A stretch of DNA of 64,000 nt from Endobacter medicaginis (lineage in GTDB: Bacteria; Pseudomonadota; Alphaproteobacteria; Acetobacterales; Acetobacteraceae), in assembly GCF_014192375.1 (NCBI RefSeq), contig NZ_JACHXV010000002.1, positions 62,001 to 126,000 of the forward strand, read 5' to 3'. Position 1 is the stretch's first letter. Each line of letters begins with the position of its first letter. This document shows, piece by piece, positions 808 to 22,297 of the stretch. A program made the translations under genes and the position numbers. A model generated the notes under the pieces. It saw nothing but the letters and a program-made list of their open reading frames with translations, was not told the origin of the DNA and did not search any database.

Positions 808-2589
808 TCAGGCGTCCATGTCGAGCGGCAGCACCGGGGCGGGGTCCGGCGCGGCAAGGGAGTCCGCCTCGCCGGCGGCGCCGATGGCGCGGATCACCTC
901 CTCGATGGTGGTCTCGCCGGCCAGTGCCGCGTTGAGCCCGGCACGCAGCATCGGCACCATGCCGGAGGCGATGGCGGCGCGCTCGATCTCGCCATGGTCG
1001 GCGCGGGCCAGCACCAGCCGCTCGATCGCCGCGTCGGGCTCGAGGAACTCGGCGATGGCCAGGCGGCCGCGATAGCCGGTGCCGCGACATTGCGCGCAGC
1101 CGGCGGCGTGCCAGATGGTGGCATCGCGCGGGAGCGCGAAGCGCTCGGCGACGGCCGCGCTGACGGTCTCCGGCCGGCGGCAGGCGGCGCAGAGCCGGCG
1201 CACCAGGCGCTGGGCCAGCACGCCGCGCAGCACGGCGGTGACGAGATAGTCCTCCAGCCCCATGTCGCGCAGCCGGGTGATGGTGGCGGCGGCCGAGTTG
1301 GTGTGCACCGTCGACAGCACCAGATGGCCGGTGAGTGCGGCCTGCACGGCGATCTGCGCTGTCTCGAGATCGCGGATCTCGCCCACCATGATCACGTCGG
1401 GGTCCTGGCGCAGGATCGAGCGCAGCAGGGAAGCGAAATCCAGCCCGATCTGCGGCTTGACCTGGATCTGGTTGATGCCGTGCAGCTGGTATTCGATCGG
1501 GTCTTCGACGGTGACGATCTTGCGCGTCGTCGCGTTCAGCGCCGACAGACCGGTATACAGCGTGGTGGTCTTGCCGCTGCCGGTCGGCCCGGTGACCAGC
1601 ACGATGCCGTTGGGCAGGTCGAACGCCGCATGCAGACGCGCCACCAGCCGGGAATCCAGGCCCAGAGTAGCGTAGTCGAAGCGCACAGAGGAGCGGTCGA
1701 GGATGCGCAGCACCACCGTCTCGCCGTGCAGCGACGGGATGGTGGAGACGCGGAAATCGACCTCCTGGCCGCGCACCGCCATGCGGATGCGGCCATCCTG
1801 CGGCAGGCGGCGCTCGGCGATGTCGAGCCGGGCCATGATCTTGATGCGCGAGATCACCGCCGCGATCAGCCCGGCCGGCGGGCTGTCGGCCTCGTGCAGC
1901 ACGCCGTCATGACGGTAGCGGATGCGCAGTCGGTCCTCGAACGGCTCGATATGGATGTCGGAGGCCTGGGTCTCGACGGCGCGGGCGATGATCTGGTTCA
2001 CCAGCCGGATCACGGGCGCTTCGGAGGCGAGGTCCTTGAGCCGGTCGGTGTCCTCGGCATGGGCGTCGTCGTCGGCGGCCTCGCCTGCGTCCGTGCCGGC
2101 CGCCTCGCCGGTCGGGTAGAGACGGTTGAGTGCGGCGTCGAGATCGATCGGCAGGGCGATCTCGACGACGACCGCCAGTCCGGTGGCGGCAGCGACGGCA
2201 TCGCGGGTGAAGGCGTCGAGCGGATCGCTCATCGCGAGGGTCAGCACATCGCCCTCGACCGCCACCGGCAGCGCGCGGGCCTGGCGCAGGAAACGCGCGC
2301 CGAGCCGCTCCTCGAGCAGCGGCGCGTCGAGCGCGAAACGCGCCGGTGCGGCGAGCGGTGCGCCGAGCAGGTCACCATAGGCCTCGGCCAGCATGCGCTC
2401 GCTGACCATGCCGAGCTGCAGCAGCACCGATTCGATGCGCTGCCCGGTGGCCTCGGCGACGCCGCGGGCACGCTCGATGGTGCGCGGCTCGGCGGTGCCG
2501 CGGGCGATCAGCACATCGGTCAGTGACGGCGCGGGCCCGCCTTCAGGCTCTGGACGCGCGGCGGACGGGGCGGGAAGCTCTTGCAGCAT
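808..2589 (-). CDS. gspE: Type II secretion system ATPase GspE
   Basis: This is the hexameric cytoplasmic ATPase that powers pseudopilus assembly. In the 593 residues one sees an N-terminal GspE/PilB N domain (about 20-160), an acidic linker (165-183), Walker A GPTGSGKT at 334-341, an Asp box VEDPIEY near 361, Walker B with VGEIRD near 402-407, and a zinc site made of C467xxC470 and C498xxC501. Length and domain order are normal for GspE. The strongly acidic linker is a local peculiarity. The gene is transcribed away from the prepilin peptidase with a 46-bp divergent gap and is followed by gspF. PilB is the alternative, but the direct gspF neighbour favours a secretion role. Confidence 0.95.
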   Translation of the reverse strand: MLQELPAPSAARPEPEGGPAPSLTDVLIARGTAEPRTIERARGVAEATGQRIESVLLQLGMVSERMLAEAYGDLLGAPLAAPARFALDAPLLEERLGARFLRQARALPVAVEGDVLTLAMSDPLDAFTRDAVAAATGLAVVVEIALPIDLDAALNRLYPTGEAAGTDAGEAADDDAHAEDTDRLKDLASEAPVIRLVNQIIARAVETQASDIHIEPFEDRLRIRYRHDGVLHEADSPPAGLIAAVISRIKIMARLDIAERRLPQDGRIRMAVRGQEVDFRVSTIPSLHGETVVLRILDRSSVRFDYATLGLDSRLVARLHAAFDLPNGIVLVTGPTGSGKTTTLYTGLSALNATTRKIVTVEDPIEYQLHGINQIQVKPQIGLDFASLLRSILRQDPDVIMVGEIRDLETAQIAVQAALTGHLVLSTVHTNSAAATITRLRDMGLEDYLVTAVLRGVLAQRLVRRLCAACRRPETVSAAVAERFALPRDATIWHAAGCAQCRGTGYRGRLAIAEFLEPDAAIERLVLARADHGEIERAAIASGMVPMLRAGLNAALAGETTIEEVIRAIGAAGEADSLAAPDPAPVLPLDMDA

Positions 2590-2635
2590 CGCCGGTCAGT
2601 ATAGCGTCGATGTTCCGCCACGGGAGAGCGCATCG

Positions 2636-3442
2636 ATGGGCGAAGGGGGATTTGCGGGCTTCGGCCGGGGCGATGCGGCGGGGTGCGTGCTCGCGCTGCT
2701 GGCGGCGCCCGCGATCGGCTCGTTTCTCGGCGTGCTGGTCGAGCGCCTGCCGCAGGGGCGGGACGTGCTGTGGAGCCGCTCGTGCTGCGACGATTGCCAC
2801 ACGGTCCTCGGGCCGCGCGATCTGGTGCCGCTGGCGAGTGCGGCGCTGTCGCGCGGGCGCTGCCGGCATTGCGGTGCGGGGCTGGACCCGTTCGTCTGGC
2901 GCATCGAGCTGGCCGCGATCGTGGTGATGGCGGCGGCCCTGCTGGCGGGGCCCGACTGGCCGACGCGGATCGCCAACGCGGTGCTGTTCGAACTGCTGCT
3001 CGCGCTGGCCTGGTGCGACCTGCGCTGGTGGCGCCTGCCCGACGGGCTGACACTGCCGCTGCTGCTCGCCGGCCTCGCGGAAGCGCTGTGGCAGTCAGGG
3101 GGCGCGGTGGCCGACCCGGTTGTGACCGACCGGGCGATCGGCGCGGTAGCCGGCTGGGGGCTGCTGGCGGCGATCGGCTGGATCTATCGCCGGCTGCGGG
3201 GGCGCGACGGCCTCGGCGGCGGCGATGCGAAGCTGCTGGCGGCCGGCGGCGCCTGGCTCGGCTGGGCGGCACTCGGGCCGGTGCTGCTGGTCGCCTCGGT
3301 CGCGACGCTTGGGGCGGCGGCCGGCGCGTGGGCGGCGACGCGTCGCGGGGCGGTGTGGCGGGCATCGACCGCACTGCCGTTCGGTCCCGGCCTGGCGGCC
3401 GGCATCGCGCTGCTGCGGGTCTGGCTGTCGGCGGCATCGTAG
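2636..3442 (+). CDS. Prepilin peptidase (A24 family)
   Basis: This bifunctional inner-membrane aspartic protease and N-methyltransferase matures type II pseudopilins or type IV pilins. The start is the ATG at 2636, preceded by GGGAG, giving 268 aa. The cytoplasmic zinc loop carries C51xxC54 and C76xxC79. The two catalytic aspartates of the family are D128 (WCDLRWWRLPD) and D197 in the GGGDAKLL motif. About seven hydrophobic helices are visible. It is divergent from gspE, which supports a GspO/PilD role. Its last 259 bp overlap an open antiparallel tail of the HxlR gene, which is unusual. Confidence 0.92.
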   Translation: MGEGGFAGFGRGDAAGCVLALLAAPAIGSFLGVLVERLPQGRDVLWSRSCCDDCHTVLGPRDLVPLASAALSRGRCRHCGAGLDPFVWRIELAAIVVMAAALLAGPDWPTRIANAVLFELLLALAWCDLRWWRLPDGLTLPLLLAGLAEALWQSGGAVADPVVTDRAIGAVAGWGLLAAIGWIYRRLRGRDGLGGGDAKLLAAGGAWLGWAALGPVLLVASVATLGAAAGAWAATRRGAVWRASTALPFGPGLAAGIALLRVWLSAAS

Positions 3443-3825
3443 GCGGCGCGCGCCGTCTCGATGCGCGACCAGTGCGTGCCGATCCAGCCGAGCAGCACCT
3501 CGAGAGCCGGCAGCAGGCTCGCACCCATCTCGGTCAGCTCGTATTCCACCCGTGGCGGCACCTCGGGGAAATAGTGACGGGTCAGCAGTCCGTCGCGTTC
3601 GAGATGGCGCAGTGTGAAGGTGAGCATGCGCTGGCTGATGCCCTCGATCCCCTGCCGGAGTGCGGAGAACCGCATGCGGCGGTCCGGTGCGAGTGCGAGC
3701 AGCGACAGGGTCAGGATCGCCCATTTGTCCGCAACCCGCGGCAGCACCCCGTTCGGCGCGCAGGGCCGCAGGCGCGGCCCGCGCTCGGTCATCTCGTAGG
3801 GCCGGCCGTGGATCAGCTCCGTCAA
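3184..3825 (-). CDS. HxlR-family transcriptional regulator with long antisense tail
   Basis: This is a winged-helix HxlR regulator, predicted to control the divergent NmrA-like gene. The HxlR core covers about residues 20-125 (VADKWAILTLSLLAL, then ISQRMLTFTLRHLERDGLLTR). HxlR proteins are usually 110-150 aa, yet this frame stays open for about 213 codons. The last 80 or so are Ala/Pro/Ser-rich and lie antisense to the prepilin peptidase gene, so the natural stop appears lost or shifted. I prefer the TTG at 3825, eight bases after AGGAG; the GTG at 3834 overlaps that Shine-Dalgarno and the ATG at 3792 lacks one. The divergent gap contains two short inverted repeats (3841-3853 and 3861-3874) that could be operators. 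Confidence 0.82.
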   Translation of the reverse strand: MTELIHGRPYEMTERGPRLRPCAPNGVLPRVADKWAILTLSLLALAPDRRMRFSALRQGIEGISQRMLTFTLRHLERDGLLTRHYFPEVPPRVEYELTEMGASLLPALEVLLGWIGTHWSRIETARAAYDAADSQTRSSAMPAARPGPNGSAVDARHTAPRRVAAHAPAAAPSVATEATSSTGPSAAQPSQAPPAASSFASPPPRPSRPRSRR

Positions 3826-3923
3826 CGGTATCACTCCTGTGCCTCAGGGAGGCGAATGTGCCGTCTTCCGACGGTCAGCAGGCCGTCTATATGGGAAGCC
3901 CTCACCAGCAGGAGGGCCCGACG

Positions 3924-4853
3924 ATGGCCGGCAGCGACAGATCTATCCTCGTCTTCGGGGCGACAGGGCAACAGGGAGGATCGGTGGCGCGTGCGCTGCT
4001 GGCCTCGGGCTGGACGGTGCGGGCCTTCGTGCGCGATGCGGCGGGGGAGAAGGCCGGGGCACTGCGCCGAGCCGGTGCCGTGACCGTCGAGGGCCGTTTC
4101 GGCGATCGCGAGGCCATCATGGCCGCGATGCAGGGGGCCTATGGCGTCTTCAGCGTCCAGCCGAGCTCCGGCCAGGGCGAGATATATGGGGTCAGCGACG
4201 CTCAGGAGGTCGCCTGGGGGATACAGATCGCCGATCTGGCTGTCGCCTGCGGCCTGCATCACCTCGTCTACAGCTCGGCGAACGCCGTAGGCGACAAACC
4301 CACGGGCCTCGGTCATTTCGACAGCAAGGCCCGCATCGAGGCCCATATCCGCACGCTGCCGATTGCGGCGACGATCCTGCGTCCGGCGGCGTTCATGGAA
4401 ATGCTGACCATGCCGGGCTTCGGGCTCCCGGAAGGCCAGTTCAACTTCTTCGCCCGGCCCGACCAGGCCATGCAGCTTCTGGCGGTGCCGGATATCGGCA
4501 AAATCGTCGCGGCCGTACTTGCCGATCCCGAGCGGTTCGCGGGCCGAACGATGGAGGTTGCCAGCGACACCGTGACGGGACAGGAGCTGGCTCAGGCTTT
4601 CACCCAAGCCGCCGGGCGACCGATCGCCTATCGGCGCTTCCCTGACACGGTACTCGACGCCAACCCGTTTCTCGCAGCACTTGCCGGTCTGTTCGACGAC
4701 GGACGGCTGACCGGTTCCGCCGACCTGACCGAGCTGCGGGCAATGGTGCCGAGCCTGCAGGATTTCGGCACATGGATCCGGGATGACGGACGCGAGGCAT
4801 TCGAGCAGGCGAGCCGAGCCAAGGGAAGTTGGGCCTACGGTCCGGCTTCCTGA
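3924..4853 (+). CDS. NmrA-like NAD(P)-binding oxidoreductase
   Basis: This is an atypical short-chain dehydrogenase of the NmrA type, 309 aa. The start ATG at 3924 follows GGAGG by eight bases. The N-terminal dinucleotide motif is G12xxG15xxG18 (FGATGQQGG), followed by a Rossmann fold, a YSSAN segment (the SDR Tyr region) and an NmrA-type C-terminal lobe. The substrate is unknown; relatives are quinone or redox-sensing reductases. HxlR/NmrA divergent pairs are common, with the regulator responding to electrophiles or quinones. The gene ends next to a terminator shared with csbD on the other strand. Confidence 0.88.
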   Translation: MAGSDRSILVFGATGQQGGSVARALLASGWTVRAFVRDAAGEKAGALRRAGAVTVEGRFGDREAIMAAMQGAYGVFSVQPSSGQGEIYGVSDAQEVAWGIQIADLAVACGLHHLVYSSANAVGDKPTGLGHFDSKARIEAHIRTLPIAATILRPAAFMEMLTMPGFGLPEGQFNFFARPDQAMQLLAVPDIGKIVAAVLADPERFAGRTMEVASDTVTGQELAQAFTQAAGRPIAYRRFPDTVLDANPFLAALAGLFDDGRLTGSADLTELRAMVPSLQDFGTWIRDDGREAFEQASRAKGSWAYGPAS

Positions 4854-17798: not shown

Positions 17799-18023
17799 TC
17801 AGCCCCGCAGCGGACTGCGCAGGGCGGCGATCCGCAGGGCGGCGAAGGCGGCGAGGCGCGAGCGCACGCGCTCCGCATCCAGCCCCATCAGCACCGCGTC
17901 CTCGAACGCGTCGAGCAGTCGCTCGCCGATCTCGGCCTCCGCCTCGGCCAGCAGGCGCAGCTTCTCGGCACAGCCGACCGCGCTGCCATCGGCGAGACGC
18001 CATTCGGGCAGCGTCTCGGTCAA
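17799..18023 (-). CDS. Small helical hypothetical protein between mlaD and DUF2155
   Basis: This is a 74-aa soluble, mostly helical protein (LRLLAEAEAEIGERLLDAFE). I do not recognise a family. It is kept as a gene because it fits exactly between two partners: it begins with TTG inside a TTGA overlap with the mlaD stop, and its own stop is one base from the GTG of the DUF2155 gene. No signal peptide or cysteine pair is present that would suggest export or metal binding. Confidence 0.6.
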   Translation of the reverse strand: MTETLPEWRLADGSAVGCAEKLRLLAEAEAEIGERLLDAFEDAVLMGLDAERVRSRLAAFAALRIAALRSPLRG

Positions 18024-18535
18024 GGTGTGGCGTCCTTGCCGGAGGCGGCCGGTGTGGCTTTCGGCGCATCCTTGCCGTTGGCGACGCTGAACACGAACTT
18101 GCTGAGCAGCTGCTCAAGGCTGATCGAGCCCTGGGTGAGCATGACCTGCGCACCGGGGGCGAGTTCCTCGCTCGCGCCGCCGGGGGCGATGGCGATATAC
18201 TTGCCGCCCATCAGCCCGTCGGAGGTGATCACCGCGCTGCTGTCGGTCGGCAGCCTGACCTGATCGCCGACGGTGAAGCTGACATCGGCGCGGAAGCTGT
18301 GCGGATCGACATGTTCGGCCGTCACCTGCCCGACCGTCACCCCGGCCACACGCACGTCACTGCCGATGTCGAGCCCGTCGACATGATCGAAGCTGGCGTG
18401 CAGCGTGTAGCCCTCCGCCGTGCGCCGCCCGGAGCCCAGCATCGCCAGCACCAGGGCCAGCACGACGCCGCACAGCACCAGCACGCCCACCGCGATCTCG
18501 ACGCGCGCCCGGCCCATCACGGCTTGCGCACTCAA
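18020..18535 (-). CDS. mlaD: MlaD-type MCE lipid-transport protein
   Basis: This is the inner-membrane-anchored, periplasmic substrate-binding subunit of the Mla phospholipid transport system. The 171 aa contain one N-terminal helix (about 13-34) and an MCE domain (about 40-118: DGLDIGSDVRVAGVTVGQV, then SDGLMGGKYIAI). The MlaE, MlaF and MlaB partners are not in the window. The TTG at 18535 overlaps the NDUFA12 stop as TTGA; a GTG (18520) and an ATG (18517) follow, but use of either would break the tight junction. Position beside NDUFA12 and DUF2155 is characteristic of alphaproteobacteria. Confidence 0.9.
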   Translation of the reverse strand: MSAQAVMGRARVEIAVGVLVLCGVVLALVLAMLGSGRRTAEGYTLHASFDHVDGLDIGSDVRVAGVTVGQVTAEHVDPHSFRADVSFTVGDQVRLPTDSSAVITSDGLMGGKYIAIAPGGASEELAPGAQVMLTQGSISLEQLLSKFVFSVANGKDAPKATPAASGKDATP

Positions 18536-18918
18536 TGACCCGCGCCCGCGTCATCGGGCACCCAGGCGTCATAATCGCCGCTGGCGCGTGGCCGCACGCC
18601 GCCGCGATAGGCGCTCCCCGGCGGGCGGTAGCCGGCCGGCGTGCCGGTCATGTTCGGCTCGTAGGGAAGCTGCCACGGCCGCCGCGCCTCCACCGGCAGT
18701 GGTGCGGCGGCGGCATAGTGCAGCCAGGCCCACCATTCCGGCGGCACCGCCGAGGGATCCTCGGCGCCACGGTACAGCACCCAGCGCCTGACATGCAGGT
18801 GGGGTGCGACGCCCTTCGCGCGGGCGCGGCGGTCTTCGAAATAGCGCCGTCCGTCCGCGTCGCGGCCGACCTCGCGGCCGCGCAGGAAGGTGGCGATGCG
18901 GGTGCCGAGGATGCTCAT
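18532..18918 (-). CDS. NDUFA12-type NADH:ubiquinone oxidoreductase accessory subunit
   Basis: This 128-aa homologue of mitochondrial complex I subunit NDUFA12 (B17.2) is an alphaproteobacterial supernumerary subunit of NADH dehydrogenase I. Family features are GRDADGRRYFE near the N-terminus, RWVLYRGAEDPSAVPPEWWAWLH in the middle and the basic PWQLPYEPNMTGT segment. The ATG at 18918 is chosen. The core nuo operon is not in this window. It is the first gene of a nine-gene minus-strand run and overlaps mlaD by four bases. Confidence 0.92.
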   Translation of the reverse strand: MSILGTRIATFLRGREVGRDADGRRYFEDRRARAKGVAPHLHVRRWVLYRGAEDPSAVPPEWWAWLHYAAAAPLPVEARRPWQLPYEPNMTGTPAGYRPPGSAYRGGVRPRASGDYDAWVPDDAGAGH

Positions 18919-19072
18919 GGGCGGCAATCTGCCACGCTGCCCCCTCACGGTCTATGGGCCAGGGCCGGAGCCGGGGCGGTCCCCGTTATCCCCGTTTTCC
19001 GCAGGCAACGAATCGGGCCGCGGCCGGGGTGGTGGCCTGTCTTGCGGCGCCACCGCCGCCTATGATCGGAAC

Positions 19073-20662
19073 ATGGCCCCCAAACCGCGCAAGCCGAGCT
19101 CCGCCTCTCCCACCGACCCGATCTGGCGGGGCGTGCGGCTGCGCCGGCTGCGCATCGGCGCCGACCCGGACGCACCACGCCGCGACGTCCGGATTCCTGC
19201 CCTGTGGGACGACGATGCCGGCGCGGCACTCGCAGCACTCGCGCCCGGCGAGGGAGCGGCCGACCTGCCGGAGGTGGTCGATGGCTGGGCGCTGGCTCTG
19301 GCCGAGCGCACCGAGCCGCACGACCCGGGCCCGATCGCGTGCGCGCTGGCCGATGCCATCCTGTGTCGCCGCTTCGCGCCCGATGCCGCCTGCTGGCGGG
19401 GTGCGGCCCCACGCGGGTTCAGCCTGCGCCTGTCGGCCTTCACCGGTGGCGAGACCGCCGGCGCGGGCGGGACGTTCGATCTCGCCGGCTACGAGGCGGC
19501 GCTGGCGCTGATCGCGCGGCTGCTGCCGGGCGGCACCGAGGGCGGCGGGCAGCTCAGGCTGACCGATCTCGATGCAGCCCTCGCCGGCCTTGGTCTGGCC
19601 TATGACAGCGCTGCCGCCCGGGCGAGCGCTGCCGCGCTGGCCGCGATCGCCACCGCGCGGCTGGCCGGCGCCGAGGCGGCCGACGCACCGGTGCCGCGCG
19701 ATTCGAGCCCGTTCGCGGAAGTGTTCCACGACGCGCCCGCCCCGCTCGCCGACGCGGCCGCGCGCGCCTGGCGGTCGGCGTCCGCGGCACCCGCCCGCAG
19801 GACGGGACGCTCCGCCCGTCACACCACCGTCGCCCGGCCCGACGCCGTCGATCCGGCCGAGACGGCGATCGAGGCACTGCTCGGGGTGGAGGCGCGCGGC
19901 ATCGCGCCGGTCTTCGCGCCCGTCGCGCCGGATGGCAGCCTGCGCCGCTCCACCCTGGCCCGCCTCGCCGCGGCATCGATGACGCCCGAACAGGCGCTGG
20001 CGCGGATGCTGAGCGGCGATCCCGCGCCTCTGGTCGGCGAGCCACGCCGTCGCGCACCGGCGCATCTGGCGATGCATGCCGCGATCGCGCCGTTTCTCGA
20101 CCTCGCGCCGCCGAAACCGCTGCAGCAGTTCGAGCTCGACCTCCCGCCTGGCGAGGCCGCGGCGCCCGCCGGGCGGCCACGCCGGCGGGAACTGTCCGCG
20201 CGGCACAAGGGCTTCACGCAGAAGGTGACGATCGGCGGCCACCGGCTGTTCCTGCGCACCGGCGAGTATGACGATGGCAGCCTCGGCGAGATCGAGGTGC
20301 TGCCCGCCCGCGAGGGCGCCGCGCTGCGCGGTGCGATCGAGGCCTTCGCGCAGGCGGTGACGATCGCCCTGCAATATGGCGTGCCGCTCGATGCGTTCGT
20401 CGACGGATTCGCCCATGCCCGGTTCGGCGGCTCGGCGGGCCCGGTCGAGGGCGATCCGCAGATCGCCCAGGCCTCCTCGGTGCCCGATTACGTGTTCCGC
20501 ACGCTGGCGGCGCATTATCTCGGGCGCACCATCGCCGATCCGTCGGCAGAGGCGACCGAGGGCGAAACTCCGCTGCTGCCGATGGCGTTGCCGATCGAGC
20601 CGCCGGTGCCTCCGCCCCCCGGCCGCCGACGTGGCCGTCCTTCCCTGCGACTGGTGAGCTGA
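19073..20662 (+). CDS. Shrunken, catalytically dead B12-dependent ribonucleotide reductase homologue (NrdJ-like, TSCPD domain)
   Basis: Residues 379-486 match the C-terminal TSCPD module of class II ribonucleotide reductase closely (KGFTQKVTIGGH, LRTGEYDDGSLGEI, EGAALR, LQYGVPLDAFVDGF, LGRT). Weaker NrdJ-like pieces occur in family order before it: a GVRLRRL and VRIPALW start (20-45), FDLAGYEAAL (135-144), GLGLAYDSAAAR (172-183), RAWRSA (231-236), GIAPVFAPV (276-284) and HLAMHAAIAPF (331-341). NrdJ enzymes are roughly 1000-1250 aa; this one is 529 aa. Only three cysteines remain (90, 98, 107), so the radical and redox cysteines and the C-terminal CxxC are absent. Reduction of ribonucleotides is therefore not expected; a regulatory or scaffold role is inference. 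RidA starts directly after its stop. Confidence 0.75.
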   Translation: MAPKPRKPSSASPTDPIWRGVRLRRLRIGADPDAPRRDVRIPALWDDDAGAALAALAPGEGAADLPEVVDGWALALAERTEPHDPGPIACALADAILCRRFAPDAACWRGAAPRGFSLRLSAFTGGETAGAGGTFDLAGYEAALALIARLLPGGTEGGGQLRLTDLDAALAGLGLAYDSAAARASAAALAAIATARLAGAEAADAPVPRDSSPFAEVFHDAPAPLADAAARAWRSASAAPARRTGRSARHTTVARPDAVDPAETAIEALLGVEARGIAPVFAPVAPDGSLRRSTLARLAAASMTPEQALARMLSGDPAPLVGEPRRRAPAHLAMHAAIAPFLDLAPPKPLQQFELDLPPGEAAAPAGRPRRRELSARHKGFTQKVTIGGHRLFLRTGEYDDGSLGEIEVLPAREGAALRGAIEAFAQAVTIALQYGVPLDAFVDGFAHARFGGSAGPVEGDPQIAQASSVPDYVFRTLAAHYLGRTIADPSAEATEGETPLLPMALPIEPPVPPPPGRRRGRPSLRLVS

Positions 20663-21133
20663 ATGCCTGAAATCGAAACGCCGGATTCACGTCTCGCCGC
20701 GCTCGGCATCGCTCTGCCGGTGCCCGCCGCGCCCGTCGCCAACTATGTCGCGGCCGTGAGCGAGGGCAGTGTGCTCGTCATCTCCGGGCAGTTGCCGCTG
20801 GTCGAGGGCAAGCTGCTCTGCACCGGGCTGCTGGGCGGAACGGTCGAGATCGATCAGGCGGTGATCGCGGCGCGGGCCTGCATGATCAACGTCATCGCGC
20901 AGGCGAAGGCCGCACTCGGCGATCTCGGCCGGGTGCGTCGCGTACTGCGTCTGGGCGGGTTCATCGCCGCGACGGCGGAATTCACCCAGCACGCGACGGT
21001 GATGAACGGCGCCTCCGACCTCGCAGTGGCCGTGTTCGGCGAGGCCGGACGGCATGCGCGCAGCACGATCGGCGTGGCCTCGCTGCCGCTCGGCGCCCCG
21101 GTGGAAGTCGAAGCGCTGTTCGCGATCGACTGA
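20663..21133 (+). CDS. RidA/YjgF-family protein
   Basis: This is a 156-aa member of the longer RidA subgroup (YjgF/YER057c/UK114). The trimeric family includes enamine/imine deaminases that protect PLP enzymes from 2-aminoacrylate. Family-like segments are VLVISGQLPLVEGKL, GQ-type turn residues, ARACMINVIAQAKAALGDL and ARSTIGVASLPLGAPVEVEA; the Arg of ARSTIG corresponds to the substrate-binding arginine. The ATG at 20663 follows the stop of the NrdJ-like gene with no gap, so the two should be co-translated. Confidence 0.9.
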   Translation: MPEIETPDSRLAALGIALPVPAAPVANYVAAVSEGSVLVISGQLPLVEGKLLCTGLLGGTVEIDQAVIAARACMINVIAQAKAALGDLGRVRRVLRLGGFIAATAEFTQHATVMNGASDLAVAVFGEAGRHARSTIGVASLPLGAPVEVEALFAID

Positions 21134-21142
21134 GCCACGCGG

Positions 21143-22297
21143 TTGGCGGAATTCACGCTCGAACTGCACGAGGCGATCGCCGGGATCGACGCCGCGGACT
21201 GGGATCTGTGCGCCGGTACCGATAATCCGTTCGTCAGCCACGGTTTTCTCAGCGCCATCGAGGAGAGCGGCTCGACCGGACGGCGGACCGGCTGGCTGCC
21301 GCGTCATGCGACCCTGCGCGATGCGTCAGGCGTGCTGGTCGCCGCCGCACCGCTCTACGCCAAGCTGCATTCCTACGGCGAATACGTGTTCGACCACGGC
21401 TGGGCACGGGCCTACGAGCAGGCGGGAGGACGATATTATCCCAAGCTGCAGGCGGCGGTGCCGTTCAGCCCGGTACCGGGCCCCCGCCTGCTGGTACGCC
21501 CCGGTGAGGACGCCGGGCGGGTGCGTCGCCATCTGGCAGCCGGCATCGCCCAGGTGACGGGAGAACTCGGCCTGTCATCGGCACATGTCACTTTCTGCAC
21601 CGACACGGAACAACAGGACCTCACGGGCGACGGCTGGCTGCCGCGACTCGGGCTGCAATATCACTGGCACAATCAGGGCTACGGAAGTTTCGACGATTTT
21701 CTCGGCGCGCTCGCGTCACGCAAGCGCAAGTCGCTGCGCCGCGAGCGACGCGAGGCACAGGGCGCGGGGCTGACGTTCCGCACGCTGCGCGGCAGCGCGA
21801 TCAGCCCCGCCGACTGGGCGGCGTTCTACGAATTCTATACGTCGACCGTCGATCGCAAATGGGGCAGCGCCTACCTCACCGAGGCATTCTTCCCGCTGTT
21901 GGGCGAGCGCCTCGGTGAGCGGGTGGTGCTGATGATGGCCGACGATCGCGGCACGCCGGTCGCGGGCGCGCTCAACCTGCTCGGCGGTGACACGCTGTAT
22001 GGCCGCAACTGGGGCTGCCGGGGCGAATGGCCGTTCCTGCATTTCGAGCTGTGCTATTATCGGGCGATCGATTTCGCCATCTCGCAGGGGCTGTCGCGCG
22101 TCGAGGCCGGCGCGCAGGGCGAGCACAAGATCCAGCGCGGCTATCTTCCGGTGCCGACCCATTCGGCGCATTTCATCGCCGATCCGGCCCTGCGCCGGGC
22201 GGTAGCGGGATTTCTCGACGTCGAACGCCCCGCGATCCTGGCCGAGATCGCGGAGCTGGAGACGTTGTCGCCCTATCGCAGCGAGGCGGAGGGTTAA
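21143..22297 (+). CDS. GNAT-family N-acetyltransferase (DUF482 / COG3146 type)
   Basis: This 384-aa protein belongs to the duplicated-GNAT DUF482 family, similar in fold to FemAB peptidyltransferases; its substrate is unknown. Typical stretches are [60 protein letters not shown] and [13 protein letters not shown]. The likely start is TTG at 21143, ten bases after the RidA stop, making a three-gene plus-strand unit. Its TAA stop overlaps the TAA of the convergent icd gene within TTAA at 22294-22297. Confidence 0.88.

Follow-up and report, generated by a model that had tools for sequence, protein, structure and literature searches.

Ribonucleotide reductases (RNRs) are essential enzymes, and few catalytic cores are known to be as constrained as theirs. 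Non-catalytic homologues of the RNR large subunit with a non-enzymatic role occur in beta-herpesviruses; these are viral, are derived from class I, and have only the RNR fold in common with the protein described here. Stand-alone TSCPD proteins (PF12637) are a further case in which this module exists outside a working RNR, as it does here. The class II enzyme NrdJ of alphaproteobacteria (NF005736, about 1220 aa) shares with our protein the locus, the TSCPD module and, in collinear order, parts of the N-terminus and second barrel half. In class II RNRs, oligomers induced by dATP/dGTP are brought about by the C-terminal region, as is electron transfer (PMC5704485). Ahead of the zinc finger, this region has a folded, IscU-like part for which a function in oligomerisation was proposed; a role of this IscU-like C-terminal domain in class II RNRs has not been reported (PMC9669993). 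In NrdJb from the split class II RNR of Pseudomonas, the IscU-like/TSCPD part is located apart from the catalytic chain, and in the protein described here TSCPD is likewise found without one; NrdJb has retained its zinc finger and functions together with NrdJa (PMC9669993). Searches of the openly licensed literature on TSCPD and RNR, on nrdJ in Acetobacteraceae and on the B12-dependent RNR of Gluconobacter yielded nothing relevant. In agreement with the original prediction, which knew of no such protein, reports of such a bacterial family were not found there.

The window is a stretch of 64,000 nucleotides from Endobacter medicaginis (Acetobacteraceae). It contains an open frame whose product had been interpreted as a collapsed class II RNR. 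This frame and its neighbours are:

18020..18535, minus strand: MlaD-domain protein, second marker of the nrdJ locus (Pfam PF02470)
18532..18915, minus strand: NDUFA12 homologue, divergent neighbour and marker of the ancestral nrdJ locus (Pfam PF05071)
19073..20662, plus strand: coding sequence of the reduced NrdJ-derived protein (529 aa), an open frame, non-catalytic as judged by its sequence
20663..21133, plus strand: RidA/YjgF-family gene, immediately 3' of the reduced gene (Pfam PF14588/PF01042), adjacency conserved
21143..22297, plus strand: FemAB-like/GNAT protein, next in the conserved neighbourhood (Pfam PF04339)

In alphaproteobacteria of other families, an intact nrdJ is divergent from NDUFA12 and mlaD at most of the loci examined. 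The reduced gene and the intact nrdJ are thus found at the same place, which makes the former the in-place descendant of the latter. At one intact nrdJ locus (L118 of genome G135), RidA and FemAB-like genes lie nearby in the same order. The coupling to RidA, for which the stop codon of the reduced gene directly precedes the RidA start codon (TGA|ATG at 20660-20665), therefore goes back at least partly to the old surroundings of nrdJ. It had been noticed correctly, but it says little about the function of the reduced protein. Neither a B12 riboswitch nor any other Rfam element was detected at the gene at the gathering threshold.

Pfam identified TSCPD (PF12637) at residues 383-482 of the window protein P0001, with an E-value of 8e-10 and 39.3 bits versus a gathering score of 22.8. 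The presumed TSCPD match to NrdJ is thereby established, although the module makes up about a quarter of the protein and not its last third. The NrdJ model NF005736 matched with an E-value of 2.5e-42, yet with 145 bits versus a cut-off of 1737. No domain besides TSCPD was found by Pfam in P0001, and a PHROGs search gave no match, as would be expected if an unrelated N-terminal domain had been fused to TSCPD. Such a fusion can practically be dismissed: an hhalign comparison of the N-terminal profile of 28 orthologues with one built from about 30 alphaproteobacterial NrdJ proteins yielded an E-value of 2.2e-15 over NrdJ 491-728, sequences of solved RNRs were matched, the gene occupies the nrdJ locus, and for the sister forms of G044 and G037 an RNR barrel is called by Pfam. 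Six pieces of the protein were each scored singly by hhalign against column-shuffled controls, the bar being the best of 40 shuffles:

19115..19240, plus strand: block A, residues 15-56, corresponding to NrdJ 12-58 (score 25.0 versus control maximum 17.9)
19331..19402, plus strand: block B, residues 87-110, corresponding to NrdJ about 135-158 (16.4 versus 15.0; weak but collinear)
19421..19714, plus strand: block C, residues 117-214, second half of the RNR barrel (87 versus 15.3; E 7.9e-14)
19745..19996, plus strand: block D, residues 225-308, corresponding to NrdJ about 686-770, second stretch of the second barrel half (39.4 versus 15.6; E 1.9e-5)
20054..20104, plus strand: block E, residues 328-344, collinear with NrdJ 863-879 (16.0 versus 17.7; not significant alone)
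20177..20530, plus strand: block F, residues 369-486, TSCPD domain, IscU-like by analogy with class II RNRs (405 versus 28.2; supported by Pfam and hhalign, pLDDT mostly above 90)

That NrdJ-like pieces precede TSCPD in the correct order was thus right for blocks A to D, which exceed their controls, with the reservation that two of the pieces are weak on their own. Block B is bridged to NrdJ by the sequence from genome G138, and block C starts just past the position of the second redox cysteine of NrdJ. When the orthologue profile was compared to PDB sequences, class II RNRs ranked first (7b9p/7b9q, E 1.8e-12); for residues 340-442 of 1xje from T. maritima the E-value was 1.2e-5. Most orthologues keep 49 of the 80 NrdJ-invariant residues in TSCPD versus 11 of 59 in block C. 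Chance resemblance to NrdJ is ruled out by the profile alignment, the shuffled controls and the matches to solved class II RNRs. A similarity confined to TSCPD with an unrelated N-terminus, which would have refuted the original prediction, is likewise ruled out by the NrdJ-like N-terminal pieces. Remote homology, the identical place of the gene and the intermediates described below all agree with a collapsed class II RNR: that the frame 19073-20662 is an NrdJ reduced at its ancestral locus is close to certain, and descent from nrdJ, as inferred from the shared locus and collinear homology, is well supported.

A single-sequence AlphaFold prediction of the window protein was uninformative (pLDDT 37). 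Based on an alignment of 48 rows, including one NrdJ and relatives from viral contigs, a model was obtained with good confidence for TSCPD and for much of residues 112-240. In VIA-align, RNR large subunits were the best matches of this model (Z up to 12.6, residues about 40-350). Because the alignment contains NrdJ, the RNR fold matches are supportive and not an independent proof. Foldseek gave no match of the model with an E-value under 0.001, and no match to the TSCPD part appeared in the fold searches, whose lists were filled by RNR barrel matches.

Compared to alphaproteobacterial NrdJ, the window protein lacks the radical cysteine, both redox cysteines, the first barrel half, the DCANPCG region and the six-cysteine zinc finger, and comprises 529 instead of about 1220 aa. 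As had been stated, it is about half as long as NrdJ, and none of its three cysteines is a catalytic one. A comparison of 32 orthologues, P0001 included, showed that every catalytic and every zinc-finger cysteine of NrdJ has been lost from all of them. The position of the radical cysteine in the NPC(S/G)E finger loop is absent in 32/32; of the redox-active pair (HACFIQ, TACNLAS), the first position is deleted and the second is never a Cys; and none of the six cysteines of the C-terminal zinc finger is found. Residues corresponding to NrdJ about 159-494 are gone and with them the first barrel half, the radical cysteine and the first redox cysteine; the effector-binding part of class II RNR structures lies within this segment. 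Large parts of NrdJ 59-134 and 600-860 have no counterpart either, and the protein stops short of the zinc finger at the NrdJ C-terminus. Only parts of NrdJ 488-603 and 632-770 are retained, so that the barrel with its effector and B12 sites is incomplete. From these missing residues it is inferred that the RNR-derived window protein is non-catalytic. The protein is also no NrdJb: it has no zinc finger, carries an attached half-barrel and is encoded in a genome without NrdJ, so that neither the zinc-finger cysteines nor a cognate NrdJa are given.

Other proteins with the C-terminal module of NrdJ were observed. Viral contigs (L175, L177, L223, L225, L233 and others) contain stand-alone TSCPD ORFs of 135-260 aa, some of them with few or no cysteines; unlike the window protein, they have no RNR barrel pieces. 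In small genomes of other families, two frames of about 280 aa (L073, 1732-2577, plus strand; L074, 1891-2724, plus strand) contain the module, one with and one without the zinc cysteines, and the catalytic half of NrdJ was not found there. A contig scan with P0001 as query matched only one ordinary NrdJ.

A search of the window genome with NF005736 and the barrel model PF02867 did not detect an NrdJ elsewhere. Besides the reduced gene, both models match only a class I large subunit (NrdA) on another contig; its gene is followed by that of NrdB. An ATP-cone was not detected in this NrdA by Pfam. Judged by its gene content, the window genome uses class I NrdAB. The proposal that the reduced protein is the partner of a genuine NrdJ has to be rejected for this genome, which possesses class I NrdAB instead.

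Several genomes contain forms that are intermediate between NrdJ and the window protein. At the nrdJ locus of G138 (L076, G138:C1:3434500-3441000, frame 926-4612, plus strand), a full-length NrdJ without any catalytic or zinc cysteine is encoded, which is the sole NrdJ of this genome; G138 is the single genome sampled for its order. In the window's family, the form of G037 has about 765 aa (open frame 801) and its first barrel half is gone. The forms of G044, G280 and G293 comprise roughly 450-480 aa; they retain barrel pieces and have lost TSCPD, which was also lost in g97. Orthologous open frames with barrel pieces and NrdR-type boxes that have lost TSCPD were observed in L166 (2204-3664, plus strand), L111 (6255-7823, minus strand) and L112 (6432-7865, plus strand). 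A 667-aa frame on the reverse strand of L072 (G198) represents a reduced NrdJ in a third lineage; the contamination of that genome is 10%. In a FastTree phylogeny calculated from the shared pieces, the non-catalytic forms cluster, with G138 being sister to the rest (support 0.90). One or two inactivation events are both possible; long branches could favour a single cluster. The genome G052 (L035 and L075) has an intact NrdJ that groups with the working NrdJs in the tree; it lies on the contig that also carries the reduced gene, which is still at the old locus. NrdB was not found in G052, which thus resembles a natural swap of RNR class.

Orthologues of the reduced gene are present in 91 of 100 genomes of the family, with one genome chosen per genus, and in 83 of the 87 good-quality ones. 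In a second draw, 116 of 120 genomes were positive, a count that includes one or more very weak matches, a few genes that are split and the forms without TSCPD. No match was obtained in G065. Values of dN/dS between congeners range from 0.02 to 0.29, are low in both halves of the protein, and lie between 0.02 and 0.15 for most pairs. The family-wide presence and these values support the view, put forward originally, that the gene is maintained under purifying selection and not decaying; the relaxed selection that would have contradicted it was not seen. A functionless, slowly decaying remnant would match the progressive loss, the absence of the gene from most genomes of the genus g62, where other genes adjoin NDUFA12, and the gene of G218, which is broken into two pieces. 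Given the near-universal open frames, the low dN/dS of most pairs, the NrdJ-invariant TSCPD residues that were kept and the conserved promoter, this explanation is very improbable.

Upstream of the gene, a search with the general NrdR consensus revealed a conserved element whose distance from the start codon is fixed. The architecture recognised by NrdR consists of two boxes about three helix turns apart (PMC9110341). A weight matrix was trained only on promoters of nrdA and of working nrdJ genes, and 1200 control segments served to set the limit, which 95% of them did not exceed. Since the boxes used for training had been chosen by consensus, the matrix is somewhat noisy. A double NrdR-type box above this limit is contained in 22 of 28 orthologue promoters, nearly always at about -80 and -48 and with box starts 31-32 bp apart. 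Examples are CCACAGGATTTTGTGG and CCACAAAATACGCTTC. A box pair of like kind precedes the TSCPD-less forms and those of G037, G099 and G041. Five of the 27 other orthologues have no clear NrdR-type box. The window's own promoter contains none; its best score of -13.3 is under the control median. The corresponding site is:

18990..19005, plus strand: site of box 1 in most orthologues; the window has CCCCGTTTTCCGCAGG, which is not recognised as a box

The boxes lie in a region shared with the divergently oriented NDUFA12. Their constant distance from the start of the reduced gene argues that they belong to this gene. NrdR is encoded in 57 of 60 genomes, the window genome included, and NrdB in 90 of 100. 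In the absence of NrdR binding data, the orthologue family can be said to meet the double-box criterion of a putative NrdR regulon, and the window copy does not. The promoters of L018, L104, L154 and others contain a DnaA-box-like sequence, TTATCCACA, at about -85 that overlaps NrdR-type box 1; in part of the family, the conserved sequence GTTATCCCCCATATCC takes its place.

The missing box of the window copy also fits a process outside dNTP synthesis, for which the RNR fold would have been co-opted as a scaffold, the boxes being inherited baggage that is fading in some lineages, the window's included. The persistence of the gene in G052, where a class I RNR was not detected, the strong divergence between genera (40-50% identity) and the TSCPD-only ORFs in viral contigs and small genomes, which have no catalytic half of NrdJ at that place, point in the same direction. 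Boxes persist, however, in most orthologues with fixed spacing and position, and this explanation is rather unlikely.

Our preferred interpretation, which is tentative and stops short of being probable, is that of a non-catalytic, RNR-derived protein that belongs to the dNTP-supply regulon and acts via TSCPD, perhaps on NrdA. Its mechanism is inferred. With class I NrdAB supplying the dNTPs, nrdJ would first have lost its catalytic residues and then most of the first barrel half together with the zinc finger at the C-terminus. The product would have been kept as a non-enzymatic protein with a role in dNTP supply, expressed ancestrally under NrdR-type control alongside a working RNR. TSCPD, IscU-like by analogy with class II RNRs, and the remaining half-barrel may form homo-oligomers, or hetero-oligomers with an RNR large subunit, which has not been shown. 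Such oligomers could tune the activity or the assembly of RNR; the partner, for which NrdA is the obvious candidate, and the direction of the effect are inferred. Because TSCPD was kept, the electron-transfer cysteines were dropped and control is of the NrdR type, an oligomerisation partner or regulator is the most economical reading. The double box found in most orthologues lends support to the originally suggested role as a regulator without demonstrating it, and no interaction, expression or phenotype data stand behind the mechanism. Furthermore, NrdA cannot be the only partner, since G052, which has an intact NrdJ and no detected NrdB, keeps the reduced gene; and as G044 and g97 have lost TSCPD, this module is not always the working part. 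It is doubtful whether the more specific claim holds, namely that the class II RNR of the family became a trans-acting, NrdR-controlled regulator of class I RNR, which would provide oligomeric control for an NrdA in which, in the window genome, no ATP-cone was detected.

With NrdJ about 159-494 deleted, and thus what is by general knowledge the effector-binding part, it is quite improbable that the protein is a sensor of dNTPs or other nucleotides that has no RNR protein partner and signals upon binding of a nucleotide to the half-barrel or to TSCPD. The RNR ancestry would be compatible with such a sensor, as would the dATP/dGTP-induced oligomerisation caused by the C-terminal region of class II RNRs (PMC5704485).

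A bacterial pseudo-RNR that is under selection throughout a family and has living intermediates at one locus would make it possible to follow an essential enzyme while it turns into something else. If the reduced protein acts on class I RNR, dNTP synthesis would be controlled in a novel way, via a pseudo-reductase. The family may also offer a handle on the function of the IscU-like C-terminal domain in class II RNRs. Finally, if gene callers name such proteins by means of NrdJ models, the family would be credited with more B12-dependent dNTP synthesis than it has.
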